DNA of 10,060 bases from Candidatus Electrothrix marina (GTDB taxonomy: Bacteria > Desulfobacterota > Desulfobulbia > Desulfobulbales > Desulfobulbaceae): contig MTKS01000037.1 of assembly GCA_004028495.1 (NCBI GenBank), positions 1 through 10,060 on the forward strand, read 5' to 3'. The notes under the pieces were generated by a model, which worked only from the letters and a program-made list of their open reading frames with translations, had not been told where the DNA came from and did not search any database. The stretch's first letter is position 1, and every line of letters begins with the position of its first letter. This document shows positions 1-10,060 of this stretch, piece after piece. The position numbers and the translations under genes are program-made.

Positions 1-267
1 GGCTTCCAGGTTTTCCGTGGTCGTTCCTATGGTTCCGGCAGGAAAGGAAGCCTGCACTTCCACCTCACCACCTTCAAGCAGCTTAAACAGGCTCTTGGCG
101 TGGGCCCGTTCCTGCTCAGCTGTTTTTTCAAAGATGTTGGCAATCTGCACCAACCCTTCCTTTTTAGCCACTTTTGCCGCAAACGAGTAGCGGTTTCTGG
201 CCTGGGATTCTCCGGCGAACGCGGTAAGGATATTTTTCTCTGTCCTGGAACCTTGCAATGCGGTCAT
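1..267 (-). CDS. rbr: Rubrerythrin, N-terminal part (runs off the left edge)
   Basis: Diiron peroxidase that reduces hydrogen peroxide in the cytoplasm of anaerobes. The 89 residues seen are the first half of the ferritin-like four-helix domain. They show the helix motif GESQARNRY with Glu20, and AEQERAH with Glu53 and His56. These positions match the known diiron ligands of Desulfovibrio rubrerythrin (Glu20, Glu53, His56). The remaining ligands and the C-terminal rubredoxin-like Fe(SCys)4 domain would lie beyond position 1, since family members are about 190 residues. The ATG at 267 is preceded by a GGAGA ribosome site about 9 nt upstream. The gene starts 21 nt after the stop of the Fur-family regulator on the same strand, with no terminator between, so the two are probably co-transcribed. 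A PerR-type regulator next to rbr is a common arrangement and supports a peroxide-stress role. The family call is secure. Whether the C-terminal rubredoxin domain is present cannot be seen. Confidence 0.95.
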   Translation of the reverse strand, partial: MTALQGSRTEKNILTAFAGESQARNRYSFAAKVAKKEGLVQIANIFEKTAEQERAHAKSLFKLLEGGEVEVQASFPAGTIGTTTENLEA

Positions 268-288: not shown

Positions 289-948
289 CTAAAATGCTGC
301 TTTTCCAGCTTCGGTTATTTTATATTTACAACGGACCGGGCTTGCAACAAACCCTTTCTTTTTCAGCGCGGTGAGCTGACAACTGATCTGCTTGGGGTCC
401 AACGAGGTGACAGCGGCAATGTCTTTATTGGCACAGACATCATCTGATTTTGCCAAGACCTCAAGAACCTCGCGCTGCCGACCACTCAATCCTTTCTTTT
501 TACAGGTAATCTTTACCCCCCCCCCGTTACATTCTCCCTTGCCTGCCTGCTTTTTTCTGTTCTTCGTCTGACATTTCGGACAAACTCCGTAAAATTCCAC
601 CCGGCAGCCGGAAATTTTGTATCCCTGACTTTGCTCTTCCTCTAAAGAGAATAACCGACTCTGATCAAACTTAATATCATCAACACGCCGACATTGCACA
701 CAGAAAATATGGTCGTGCTGCTCAATTTCCTTATCGAACCGCTTCTGACGCCCGCTGATTTCCAGCTTCCTGATCATTCCTGCTTCGGACAGAATCTCAA
801 GATTCCTATACACGGTGGCCAAGCTGATACGCGGTAATTTTTTTTTGATCCGCTCATACAGTGCATCAGCAGTAGGATGGTTGTGGCAATTTCCAAGCTC
901 TTCAAGAATCAATTCACGCTGGTGGGTCATTCGTAAGATATTTTTCAT
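289..948 (-). CDS. Fur-family (PerR-like) metal-dependent repressor with an extra C-terminal winged-helix-like domain
   Basis: Cytoplasmic DNA-binding sensor, 219 residues against the usual 130-150. Residues 1-130 are a full Fur domain: recognition region SLATVYRNL (42-50), dimerisation domain, and two CxxC pairs (Cys83/86 and Cys123/126) for the structural zinc. By alignment to Bacillus PerR, the sensory-site candidates are His24, Asp72, His78, His80 and Asp91. Aspartate at the position of PerR Asp104 and the rubrerythrin neighbour favour PerR over Fur, but this is an inference. Residues 130-145 form a basic linker ending in GGG. Residues 145-219 look like a small winged helix: GRQREVLEVLA, a DIAAVTSLDPKQIS helix-turn-helix, then a LKKKGFV wing and ITEAGKAAF. 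The linker glycines are encoded by ten consecutive G; loss or gain of one base would end the protein at residue 144 or 149, a normal Fur length. ATG 948 follows AGGTGAT at 3 nt; Met7 is an alternative start. Confidence 0.9.
   Translation of the reverse strand: MKNILRMTHQRELILEELGNCHNHPTADALYERIKKKLPRISLATVYRNLEILSEAGMIRKLEISGRQKRFDKEIEQHDHIFCVQCRRVDDIKFDQSRLFSLEEEQSQGYKISGCRVEFYGVCPKCQTKNRKKQAGKGECNGGGVKITCKKKGLSGRQREVLEVLAKSDDVCANKDIAAVTSLDPKQISCQLTALKKKGFVASPVRCKYKITEAGKAAF
516..525 (-). repeat. Ten-base poly-G tract inside the Fur-family gene
   Basis: Ten C on the plus strand are ten G in the coding strand, codons 142-145 (Gly-Gly-Gly plus the first base of Val145). The tract lies at the junction of the Fur domain and the extra C-terminal domain. 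With nine G the next codon is TAA and the protein ends at residue 144. With eleven or eight G the reading continues as Lys-Asp-Tyr-Leu and stops, giving 149 or 148 residues. Only ten G (or a multiple of three away) allows the long form. G tracts of this length are typical sites of slipped-strand replication and of transcriptional slippage. They are also typical places for sequencing errors, so the count itself needs confirmation. Confidence 0.9.
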
Positions 949-984: not shown

Positions 985-1011
985 AGTAATTAAGAATTAT
1001 TACTGTGTCAA
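985..1011 (-). promoter_or_regulatory. Promoter -35 and palindromic operator candidate of the Fur-family/rbr operon
   Basis: Read on the minus strand, a perfect TTGACA lies at 1011-1006, followed after 17 nt by TACTTT (988-983), a weak -10. The spacer and -10 region contain a 20-bp near-palindrome at 985-1004 with outer arms AGTAAT/ATTACT and one mismatched pair further in. A second, overlapping repeat is CTTAA/TTAAG at 980-994. An A+T-rich dyad between -35 and -10, upstream of a Fur-family gene, is where an autoregulatory Per/Fur operator is expected. It does not match the TTATAATnATTATAA Per box closely, so binding by this protein is inferred from position only. Confidence 0.5.
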
Positions 1012-6738: not shown

Positions 6739-6775
6739 AAGCAGGCACCCTGCTTTCCGGTTAAAAACGGAAAGC
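6739..6775 (+). ncRNA. Two mutually exclusive leader hairpins upstream of the riboswitch core
   Basis: The first hairpin is AAGCAGG-CAC-CCTGCTT (6739-6755). The second is GCTTTCCG (6752-6759) with CGGAAAGC (6768-6775) around an 8-nt A-rich loop. They share bases 6752-6755, so only one can form fully. The 8-mer CGGAAAGC occurs again at 6807-6814 inside the riboswitch core, so the strand 6752-6759 has two equal partners. Confidence 0.5.
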
Positions 6776-6849
6776 TGACAAAGCCACAGCCGTCGTGAGG
6801 CGGTGTCGGAAAGCCACGGATCTCTCGGGAGGAGACCGCCGGGTTGCCA
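6776..6849 (+). ncRNA. Cyclic-di-GMP-I (GEMM) riboswitch candidate
   Basis: Regulatory RNA in the leader of the downstream operon. Elements in GEMM order are as follows. A 5' segment TGACAAAGCC (6776-6785) resembles the consensus GGCAAACC. A hairpin CCGTC-GTGA-GGCGG (6790-6803) has a GNRA tetraloop. A joining segment CGGAAAGCC (6807-6815) stands in for ACGCAAAGCC, followed by ACGG. A second helix, GGATCTC/GAGACC, is closed by TCGGGAG (6818-6837). The 3' segment GCCGGGTTGCC (6838-6848) equals a common GEMM ending. The GNRA loop, AAAGCC and GCCGGGTTGCC are the strongest points. The deviations are GA for GG in the 5' segment and GGAAA for GCAAA in the junction, both near the known ligand pocket. 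Ligand identity (c-di-GMP, cGAMP or a variant) is therefore open. A covariance-model scan would decide. Confidence 0.62.
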
Positions 6850-7017
6850 TTTTGTCCTTCTCGTTGCCCGGAAGTGTCGAATTATGACATCAATGAACAG
6901 AGAAATCTGTCCGGCCCAAACCGCCGGCCATATGGACAGCCACCCCTTCTGCTTGAATTTCTCCTCCCTCACCCTTTTAACCCAACTCATACTCATTTTT
7001 TAAAGAAGAAAAGGAGG
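6850..7017 (+). promoter_or_regulatory. Likely expression platform and ribosome site of the phnD-like gene
   Basis: The 168 nt after the riboswitch core hold no gene. CCGGG inside the core's 3' strand (6839-6843) can pair with CCCGG at 6867-6871, an alternative fold that would break the core. A GC-rich hairpin with arms CTGTCCGGCC and GGCC...GGACAG (6907-6939) has no U tract, so an intrinsic terminator is not evident. TCCTCC at 6962-6967 is fully complementary to GGAGGA (7013-7018), which contains the strong Shine-Dalgarno AGGAGG (7012-7017) placed 8 nt before ATG 7026. Control at the level of translation is therefore plausible. This is inference from complementarity. Confidence 0.4.
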
Positions 7018-7025
7018 AAGGTGTA

Positions 7026-7928
7026 ATGATAAAAAAGATTTTGGCAGTACTTGCTCTGTTGCTCGTCTTTATCGCACCAAGTTCAGCCGCCCAAAAAAAT
7101 ACTGATGATAACGTCAAAATAGGAATTCTTTCCTGGAGAGGACCGTTAGGTTTCAAGAAGAGCTGGGAGGGCACTGAAAAATATCTTACCAAAGAACTCG
7201 GGAGACCGGTGACCGTGCTGCCTCTGGAGTTCGAAGATGTCCTGCCCGCTGTGAAGAAAGGAAAGGTTGATTTTTTTACCGCCGACCCTTCCATGTTCAT
7301 GAGTGCCAAGATGAAATACGGTGCAAGTGAAATATTGACCATGAAACTTATCAATGCCGATTCAGTCGGGGCTGTACTCTTTACAGGAGCGGATAATCCG
7401 ACTGTAAATTCATTAACCGATCTCAACGGAAAGAGGTTCGGCGCGTTACAGCGTTGGTCGTTCGGCGGCTGGCAGATGGCGGAAAAAGAGTTCCGTAATG
7501 TGGGGATTGACCCCTACCCCTTTCTCCACACGCTGCGCTTCTTCGACAAACCCGATGCTGTGGTGAGGGCCGTCCTTCGCGGACAGGTTGACGCCGGTAC
7601 CGTGCCTTCCAGTATTCTGGAAAGAATGGCAAAAGCAGGGGAAATAAAAATGAGGGATGTGAAAATCCTGAGACAAAAAGCCTACCCTGACTTTCCTTAT
7701 ACATGCTCAACCGAGCTTTATCCCGGTTTTCCTTTAGCCAAAACAGCAGCTGTCGGCCATCCCCTGGCCCATGAGCTTGCCGATGCACTCAAGGCCATAC
7801 AACCGGGAGACAACATTCTGAAGGCGGCCCGAATCACAGGCTGGGTTGATCCGCTTGACTACACAGACATTGAAATCGTCCAATCACAGCTCAGAGGCGG
7901 CGGATACACCGGGCGACGAATTCATTAA
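7026..7928 (+). CDS. PhnD-like periplasmic substrate-binding protein
   Basis: Exported binding protein of the phosphate/phosphite/phosphonate ABC-transporter family (Phosphonate-bd), 300 residues. A Sec signal peptide (MIKKILAVLALLLVFIAPSSA, cleavage near residue 21) is followed by KIGILSWRGPLGFKKSWEGT, a first-lobe start. The pocket-lining segment is VDFFTADPSMFMSAK (81-95). The hinge motif is LTDLNGKRFGALQRWSFGGWQMAEKEF (130-156), and the second lobe carries DAVVRAVLRGQVDAGTVPSSILE (177-199). Members of this family also serve as sensory domains. No ATPase or permease gene lies in the operon, so the protein may sense rather than transport. The true ligand cannot be read from sequence. ATG 7026 has AGGAGG at 8 nt. 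It is the first gene behind the c-di-GMP-type leader, and the next gene starts 12 nt after its stop. A PhnD-like domain is clear; the name phnD is not justified. Confidence 0.88.
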   Translation: MIKKILAVLALLLVFIAPSSAAQKNTDDNVKIGILSWRGPLGFKKSWEGTEKYLTKELGRPVTVLPLEFEDVLPAVKKGKVDFFTADPSMFMSAKMKYGASEILTMKLINADSVGAVLFTGADNPTVNSLTDLNGKRFGALQRWSFGGWQMAEKEFRNVGIDPYPFLHTLRFFDKPDAVVRAVLRGQVDAGTVPSSILERMAKAGEIKMRDVKILRQKAYPDFPYTCSTELYPGFPLAKTAAVGHPLAHELADALKAIQPGDNILKAARITGWVDPLDYTDIEIVQSQLRGGGYTGRRIH

Positions 7929-9146: not shown

Positions 9147-9164
9147 AAAAAAAAAGGGGGGGGG
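9147..9164. repeat. A9G9 compound homopolymer tract
   Basis: Nine A (9147-9155) are followed directly by nine G (9156-9164), with no interruption. It is the second long G/C homopolymer in the window. It lies about 245 bp upstream of the cotransporter start and about 130 bp upstream of the PilZ -10, in a region where no gene is supported. Length variation here would change spacing in the intergenic region or in an undetected small gene. Confidence 0.85.
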
Positions 9165-9409: not shown

Positions 9410-10060
9410 ATGACCACGAATATAAACAAAATTCTAGACAAGATTCCTGCCGGTGCCTTAGCCTTGGCAGGTCTGGCTGTCCTTATTCCCGCAAGATCGA
9501 TTTGGGCGGGCAACAACAACGACGCCGAAGCCATCTCCTGGGTGATGTTGTTTCTGGGGATAACCGGAGGCCTGGCCTTTTTCCTGTACGGCATGGAACT
9601 GATGAGCGAGGGGCTCAAAAAAACGGCTGGCAACAAGATGCGCTCCATCTTGGCTGCTCTGACCAAAAACCGATTCATAGGTCTCCTGATGGGTGCCTTT
9701 GTCACCACGGTCATCCAGTCGTCCAGTGCCACCACCGTGATGCTGGTCAGCTTTGTCCAGGCGGAACTGATGACCTTCGCCCAGTCCCTGGGCGTCATCC
9801 TGGGGGCCGACATCGGCACCACCATCACGGCCCAGCTGGTCGCCTTCAAAGTGACCGACTATGCCCTGGGCATGATCGCCGTAGGCTTTGGCGTGCGCAT
9901 GTTCGGCAAGAATGAAAAAATCAAGAGCATCGGCGACATCCTGTTAGGCTTCGGCGTCCTCTTTTACGGCATGAAGCTTATGAGCGATTCCATGACGCCG
10001 TTGCGCACTTACCCGCAGTTCATCGACATGATGAAGTCCATGGAAAACCCGCTGCTGGGC
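9410..10060 (+). CDS. Na+/phosphate cotransporter, N-terminal part (runs off the right edge)
   Basis: Inner-membrane sodium-coupled phosphate carrier of the NptA/SLC34-related family (Na_Pi_cotrans). The window holds its first 217 residues. A hydrophobic segment that may act as TM1 or a signal is at about 12-32. Next come GITGGLAFFLYGMELMSEGLKKTAG and the first QSSS repeat, VIQSSSATTVMLVSFV, the substrate- and sodium-binding signature. GVILGADIGTTITAQLVAF follows, then a second pair of membrane segments. Bacterial members are usually 540-600 residues and many end in a PhoU-like domain, which would be outside the window. The chosen ATG at 9410 has only a weak GGAAAA site at about 3 nt, but the reading frame matches the family from there on. 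No pho regulon box was recognised upstream. Its relation to the PhnD-like protein next door (both phosphorus-linked families) may be coincidental. Confidence 0.92.
   Translation, partial: MTTNINKILDKIPAGALALAGLAVLIPARSIWAGNNNDAEAISWVMLFLGITGGLAFFLYGMELMSEGLKKTAGNKMRSILAALTKNRFIGLLMGAFVTTVIQSSSATTVMLVSFVQAELMTFAQSLGVILGADIGTTITAQLVAFKVTDYALGMIAVGFGVRMFGKNEKIKSIGDILLGFGVLFYGMKLMSDSMTPLRTYPQFIDMMKSMENPLLG

Follow-up and report, generated by a model that had tools for sequence, protein, structure and literature searches.

Do ten consecutive G in the gene for a Fur-family regulator of the cable bacterium Candidatus Electrothrix marina act as a switch, or do they occupy their place for some other reason? 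The run lies near the beginning of a stretch of 10,060 nucleotides (hereafter the window, meaning the whole stretch that was analysed; contig MTKS01000037.1 of assembly GCA_004028495.1), and a sequence-only reading of this DNA had proposed that slippage on it toggles the protein between a one-domain and a two-domain form. We consider it probable that the tract (G10) is instead a homopolymer peculiar to this species and produced by drift, situated in the linker of a constitutively fused PerR-type regulator and over the old start of the gene for its C-terminal winged helix-turn-helix (wHTH) domain, and that it is no programmed switch. The features on which the argument turns are as follows, all on the minus strand.

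1..267, minus: rubrerythrin gene rbr, 21 nt downstream of the fusion gene, its 3' part cut by the contig end
289..948, minus: gene for a PerR-like Fur + wHTH fusion protein of 219 aa (open reading frame; Pfam)
298..489, minus: C-terminal wHTH domain (ArsR/MarR-like), residues 154-217 (Pfam)
490..558, minus: fast-evolving linker, residues 131-153 (alignment A1)
516..525, minus: G10 tract; in the alignment, the columns of its codons 142-144 hold the internal start codon and two further codons of non-cable relatives
532..540, minus: Shine-Dalgarno-like AAGGGAGAA (codons 137-139), with no in-frame start after it (linker scan)
559..939, minus: Fur/PerR domain, residues 4-130 (Pfam and NCBIfam; residues 5-130 aligned with residues 18-143 of Bacillus subtilis PerR, PDB 2fe3)
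985..1011, minus: candidate operator AGTAAT-N8-ATTACT (985-1004) beside a TTGACA -35-like box (1006-1011) (upstream alignment)

A PerR-like regulator with a second DNA-binding domain

The suggestion that the gene codes for a Fur-family regulator with an additional DNA-binding domain is borne out by domain searches: Pfam recovers a FUR domain (E 1e-30, 106.6 bits) at residues 4-120 and an HTH_5 domain at residues 158-202, and the protein is a PerR-like Fur domain fused to a wHTH. Its best match among solved structures is Bacillus subtilis PerR (PDB 2fe3), which it resembles in the Fur domain and in the aligned positions of the PerR metal ligands His37, Asp85, His91, His93 and Asp104, which are kept together with the CxxC pairs. 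It differs from PerR in possessing the second DNA-binding domain and in scoring under the cut-offs of the NCBIfam PerR equivalog models (115.6 against 180 and 99.7 against 200). The wHTH has a single match in the genome of the window species (2.05 Mb in 472 contigs, about 70% complete) and, when searched alone against solved structures, finds weak sequence matches (best E 0.013). Against four congeners it shows a dN of 0.03-0.09, a dS of 0.26-1.3 and a dN/dS of about 0.06-0.12; it is under purifying selection in the window's lineage. The linker, set as residues 128-153 for this comparison, has a dN of 0.21-0.25 between the window species and the same four congeners, as against 0.02-0.09 for the two domains, and of 0.05-0.23 among the four congeners themselves.

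We observed rbr directly after the fusion in all eight Electrothrix and all four Electronema loci, and in 45 of 92 loci overall, which makes the link to rbr common, not general. Desulfovibrio vulgaris likewise has its regulator beside this gene, in the order perR-rbr-rdl, and the passages of PMC545781 on delta-proteobacterial PerR report predicted PerR sites and perR-rbr operons in other delta-proteobacteria; a PerR-wHTH fusion is unmentioned in these passages. Upstream of the fusion gene, the candidate operator and the TTGACA box are largely conserved in seven aligned Electrothrix upstream regions (of eight loci, L077 being left out), and the operator recurs in an altered form in two other genera. 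The conserved inverted repeat by the TTGACA box suggests self-regulation of the fusion gene, and the fusion protein may regulate rbr as well. In the open-licence literature, the combination of Electrothrix and rubrerythrin led only to work on magnetotactic consortia, and among the papers listed on cable bacteria none was by its title on a PerR-type regulator. Elsewhere in the window, a c-di-GMP-I riboswitch (Rfam RF01051, 51.9 bits, gathering threshold 35) lies at 6773-6851 on the plus strand, about 175 nt upstream of a gene (7026-7928) that by eye is like those for phosphate/phosphonate-type periplasmic binding proteins.

Fused and split forms, and a probable start within the junction

Among 73 genomes of the family, 56 have the fusion, two have adjacent separate genes (G013 and G071), one has the Fur part only (G029) and in one the locus is cut by a contig end (G015); the others have more distant Fur proteins only, or nothing. 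Across the order, the search recovered the wHTH from 148 of 242 genomes, many of which have it as a free gene about 76-85 codons long. Five contexts of the free gene were inspected by eye: it lies beside a peroxiredoxin gene in three (G042, G047, G048) and beside a rubredoxin-like reading frame in G037, the context in G050 being less clear. G013, a family member with split genes, shows perR - wHTH - rbr - peroxiredoxin in this order, with the peroxiredoxin confirmed by Pfam. A reading frame beside a free wHTH gene (L064:2194-2631) was considered by eye as a superoxide-reductase-type gene, an idea that was dropped when Pfam gave no hit for it at E 0.01. Among the free wHTH proteins inspected (L162-L165, L169, L170, L062-L066), most begin with a Cys-rich motif, e.g. 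M(A/G)C..., and this Cys-rich start corresponds to the linker in the fusions.

For a tree of the locus, 47 of the 90 wHTH matches outside the family were taken (genera g25 and g33 in full, with 16 and 13, and 18 picked by hand), and the resulting set of 92 loci leaves out L030 and L160 (contig end), L031 (Fur only), L062-L066 (free wHTH), L149, L162-L165, L169 and L170 (wHTH only in the stretch) and L032-L043 (12 apparent duplicates). The fused state is found in 78 loci and the split state in 14, and on the tree, which is a quick maximum-likelihood one with SH-aLRT support only and has 30 weak branches among its 87 inner ones, the two states need at least nine changes. In this set, g25 has 10 fused and six split loci, and g33 nine fused and two split. 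A 2-nt indel separates split L061 from fused L136, and L134, L140, L143 and L144 are split through an in-frame stop ahead of the second start. In g33, what sets the split L152 and L161 apart from the fused L028, L156 and L155 is a single A, in a run where the Fur domain ends, together with a stop. The expectation of one-domain and two-domain forms thus holds at the level of relatives, where both states exist and this one sister group differs by a single A. Runs of A7-A9 are common in the fused perR-wHTH coding sequences, some of them in the linker (L010, L015, L016, L018, L023, L024, L028 and others), and may be natural slippage places between fused and split products; the protein clusters P0122 and P0134 resemble, by eye, one-base frame changes near an A-run.

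We posit that the PerR-wHTH junction is an old gene boundary at which fusion and fission would be easily reversible, the linker marking what used to be the beginning of an independent small wHTH gene. One-gene and two-gene states alternating through short indels or stop codons are likewise a feature of the GeneTack frame-transition clusters, as these are presented in PMC3711429; the locus differs from them in that the wHTH gene, whether fused or split, retains a ribosome-binding site and a start of its own.

In non-cable relatives, the junction of the fused gene itself reads like a gene start, e.g. AAAGGAGAA, with an ATG 6-9 nt on. A first scan recovered a linker ATG (41) or GTG (one) in 42 of 42 parsed non-cable fused loci, and L075, L119 and L126 proved by tblastn to be fused with a junction ATG too. 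A Shine-Dalgarno (SD) dG of -6 or below was obtained for 36 of the 42 junction starts, against six of 44 other in-frame internal ATGs; the genes' own upstream starts, which were picked by a simple rule and are possibly wrong in places, reach this value in only eight of 41, which means that expression here does not depend on a strong SD. Within the 92-locus set a junction ATG or GTG is present in 66 of 66 non-cable fused loci (L011 included, with ATG), the SD dG being -6 or below in at least 59 and the SD weak or absent at six (L016, L029, L076, L078, L084 and L128, the last with -0.2), and the split genes begin at the same SD-ATG (ATG in 14 of 14, dG of -6 or below in 13 of 14); as the loci are related, all these counts are not independent and are inflated. 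Under a null of synonymous codons (seven upstream codons, 42 loci, 400 rounds) the simulated mean dG was -6.05 against an observed -7.77, with none of the 400 rounds as low (z -5.3). The Gly codon next to the junction start is GGA in 34 of 39 cases against 79 of 398 outside the linker, and the sisters L023 and L024 keep AAGGAGA although the reading frame over it and the residues differ.

Since changes of state recur while the SD-ATG signal stays, the junction start would be in use, with ribosomes presumably initiating at it. In the other Desulfobulbaceae and the Desulfocapsa-type relatives the wHTH gene would keep its own SD and ATG whether fused or split, and because of this the non-cable fused genes with a nested start probably give two products, the PerR-wHTH fusion and a free wHTH. 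We found no published record of such a nested start in a PerR-wHTH fusion in the open-licence literature. A comparable arrangement, as set out in PMC11899642, is Cas11b inside cas8b, where an in-frame start in a longer gene likewise has the C-terminal part predicted as a separate small protein; the differences are that in our case the product is predicted for relatives only, the start being absent from the window gene, and that two DNA-binding domains are concerned.

The internal ATG is absent from all 12 cable-bacterial loci examined, eight of Electrothrix and four of Electronema. One Electrothrix locus has a TTG in its stead and two Electronema loci a GTG or TTG, all without a strong SD, and the linker of the window gene has no ATG, GTG or TTG that could serve as an in-frame start at the junction, such that its SD-like element at 532..540 may be vestigial. 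With the loci labelled by genus, a single change on the tree accounts for the kept or lost start, and the branch concerned has an SH-aLRT of 93. Two Electrothrix-like database proteins (P0007 and P0030) keep a Met at the start column, and hence the loss is either not universal in Electrothrix or occurred more than once. We propose that in the cable bacteria, with the internal start missing in the loci examined, only the fusion would be made.

The G10 tract in the window species

The ten C at 516-525 of the plus strand form a G10 on the coding strand, which supplies codons 142-144 (GGG GGG GGG) and the first base of GTA145 in the 219-aa reading frame 948..289. As claimed beforehand, the tract sits at the domain junction, in the linker flanked by the Fur domain (Pfam 4-120) and the wHTH (about 152-217), and the arithmetic of its frames is correct: with nine G the sequence runs ...GGG TAA and ends at 144 aa, and with eleven it ends at 149. 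In an alignment, the relatives' ATG GGT TGC corresponds to GAG GGG TGC in congener L003 and to GGG GGG GGG in the window, a column match that is a MAFFT alignment of a fast-evolving stretch. The tract is placed exactly at the junction because it covers the lost start codon; in the window species, the codon that replaced the ATG and the next two would have become GGG. Relative to L003, which reads GAGGGGTGCGCAAAG where the window has G10 followed by TAAAG, the site is of the same length and the region differs by substitutions only.

A long G run in a coding sequence with stops in the other frames is typical of homopolymer contingency loci, and the window gene is alike in this; ten G are also long enough to slip as they do in such loci. 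Phase variation by slippage, which within a population would toggle the fused PerR-wHTH and a Fur-only PerR, accordingly draws on the immediate stops in both other frames, on the Fur-only and fused states of relatives, with the single A and stop that separate them in g33, and on a Fur-only database protein of the Electrothrix gigas type (P0121, 124 residues). The last could be a truncation or frameshift, a contig end or a sequencing error. The off state would remove the wHTH also, the internal start being gone. Read from codon 142, the other two frames of the seven congeners run for 0 to 15 codons before a stop (codon 142 is not the exact homologue in L008 and L009, whose linkers differ in length), so that out-of-frame stops come with the Lys-rich linker as such, and we reject them as a designed feature.

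The sequence-only reading asked whether homologues share the fusion and the tract: the two-domain fusion is present in seven of seven congeners, with one genome per species, and a G tract at the junction in none (the proteins of G005 and G007 being identical). Gly-Gly-Gly at the tract site is absent from 32 other Electrothrix-like protein clusters (P0002-P0033), and no truncated form of the window species occurs among the best 120 proteins for either the full-length or the 144-residue query, searches that list 90% clusters, with the members inside the window species' cluster invisible. The gene thus differs from poly-G contingency loci: the tract is missing from the relatives searched, the protein searches brought up no length variants, and its genome is not enriched in such tracts. 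With the tract missing from congeners, its origin without net length change and the purifying selection on the wHTH, the phase switch is not supported, and we regard it as very improbable. By title, no fitting report of phase variation of a Fur-family or PerR regulator by poly-G or another homopolymer was found in the open-licence literature.

The recurrence of fused and split states could be carried further, with the junction as a recurrent length-sensitive switch point where slips in homopolymers decide between a fused regulator and two regulators, the nested start securing a free wHTH in most relatives, and, in the window species, with that start lost in the cable bacteria, the G10 as a true on/off switch of the wHTH. 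We give this little credence; if it were true, the oxygen-stress programme could vary from cell to cell along a single filament.

An artefact, be it a wrong tract length, wrong G calls (e.g. from dark cycles) or two misjoined genes, is a concern in a draft genome fragmented into 472 contigs, the more as the congener assembly G007 has stretches like homopolymer garbage. The fusion in all seven congeners refutes an assembly error that joined two genes. The reading frame is intact, the alignment with close congeners is free of gaps on both sides of the tract, and the 90% protein cluster of the fusion has five members on three contigs, one of them of 33.9 kb and so longer than the window's contig, although members are not necessarily identical. 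Hence, we deem an artefact unlikely.

How often would such a tract arise by chance? Of 200 shuffles of the window that preserve its dinucleotides, 11 contained a G10 on either strand. The genome of the window species has 15 G9 positions, making up 10 tracts of G9 or longer in 2.05 Mb, near the 15.7 or so positions expected from equal base frequencies (the real genome composition not being used); long G tracts are not enriched against this expectation, and the idea of a genome rich in poly-G switches is not borne out for it (G000). By eye, nine of the ten tracts lie outside recognisable genes, overlapping at most short reading frames, the exception being the G10 of the window; if a stop-free stretch of 150 codons is taken as a cruder criterion, two of the ten pass, the G10 and one at 9156. 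The latter is a G9 at window 9156-9164 (plus strand), directly after an A9 run and about 250 nt upstream of a transporter-like gene at 9410, and the stop-free frames around it resemble no recognised gene. Two others (L068 and L069, on G000:C45 and C55) belong to intergenic sequences that closely resemble each other, carry G10 or G9 and read TGTCTCACCCCCC(C)AAGGGGGGGGG...; they probably represent a dispersed repeat.

The number of G9 positions per congener ranges from 10 to 57 in six of the seven and is 460 in G007. In this last, a single-contig Electrothrix assembly, L175 and L176 (G007:C1 near 1.36 Mb and 3.894 Mb) are several hundred bases of dense homopolymers, with up to 62 G or 76 C, apparently assembly garbage. 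In a sample of 21 distinct congener tracts, covering only the first places of each genome, 12 fall within stop-free stretches of at least 150 codons, and in the eight of these 12 that were inspected by eye (at least 257 codons) the runs mainly translate into two or three Gly or Pro residues. Coding G9/C9 runs are by this count ordinary in the genus, and they are a base rate against over-reading the single one of the window.

A last alternative leaves the DNA unchanged: RNA polymerase might slip on the G run and yield a steady mix of fused and Fur-only protein. This would provide two products, as the nested start of the relatives may, and A7-A9 runs, too, are common in the genes of the relatives, with some of them lying in the linker. 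The tract, however, is not conserved, and slippage by RNA polymerase is best known on A/T runs, which counts against a G10; we hold this for extremely unlikely. The reading that we favour is the G10 as a product of drift in the linker, where it would have no selected role.

Implications for the PerR-wHTH family

A suggestive homopolymer may thus occupy a meaningful place without being a switch, that of the G10 being meaningful as a former gene boundary. For the family at large, fusion and fission of PerR and the wHTH are predicted to be easily reversible, and the likely nested start predicts that one gene gives rise to two proteins for a peroxide-type regulator of sulfate reducers. This two-protein output is predicted to have been lost in most or all of the cable bacteria, whose habitat spans oxic and anoxic layers.
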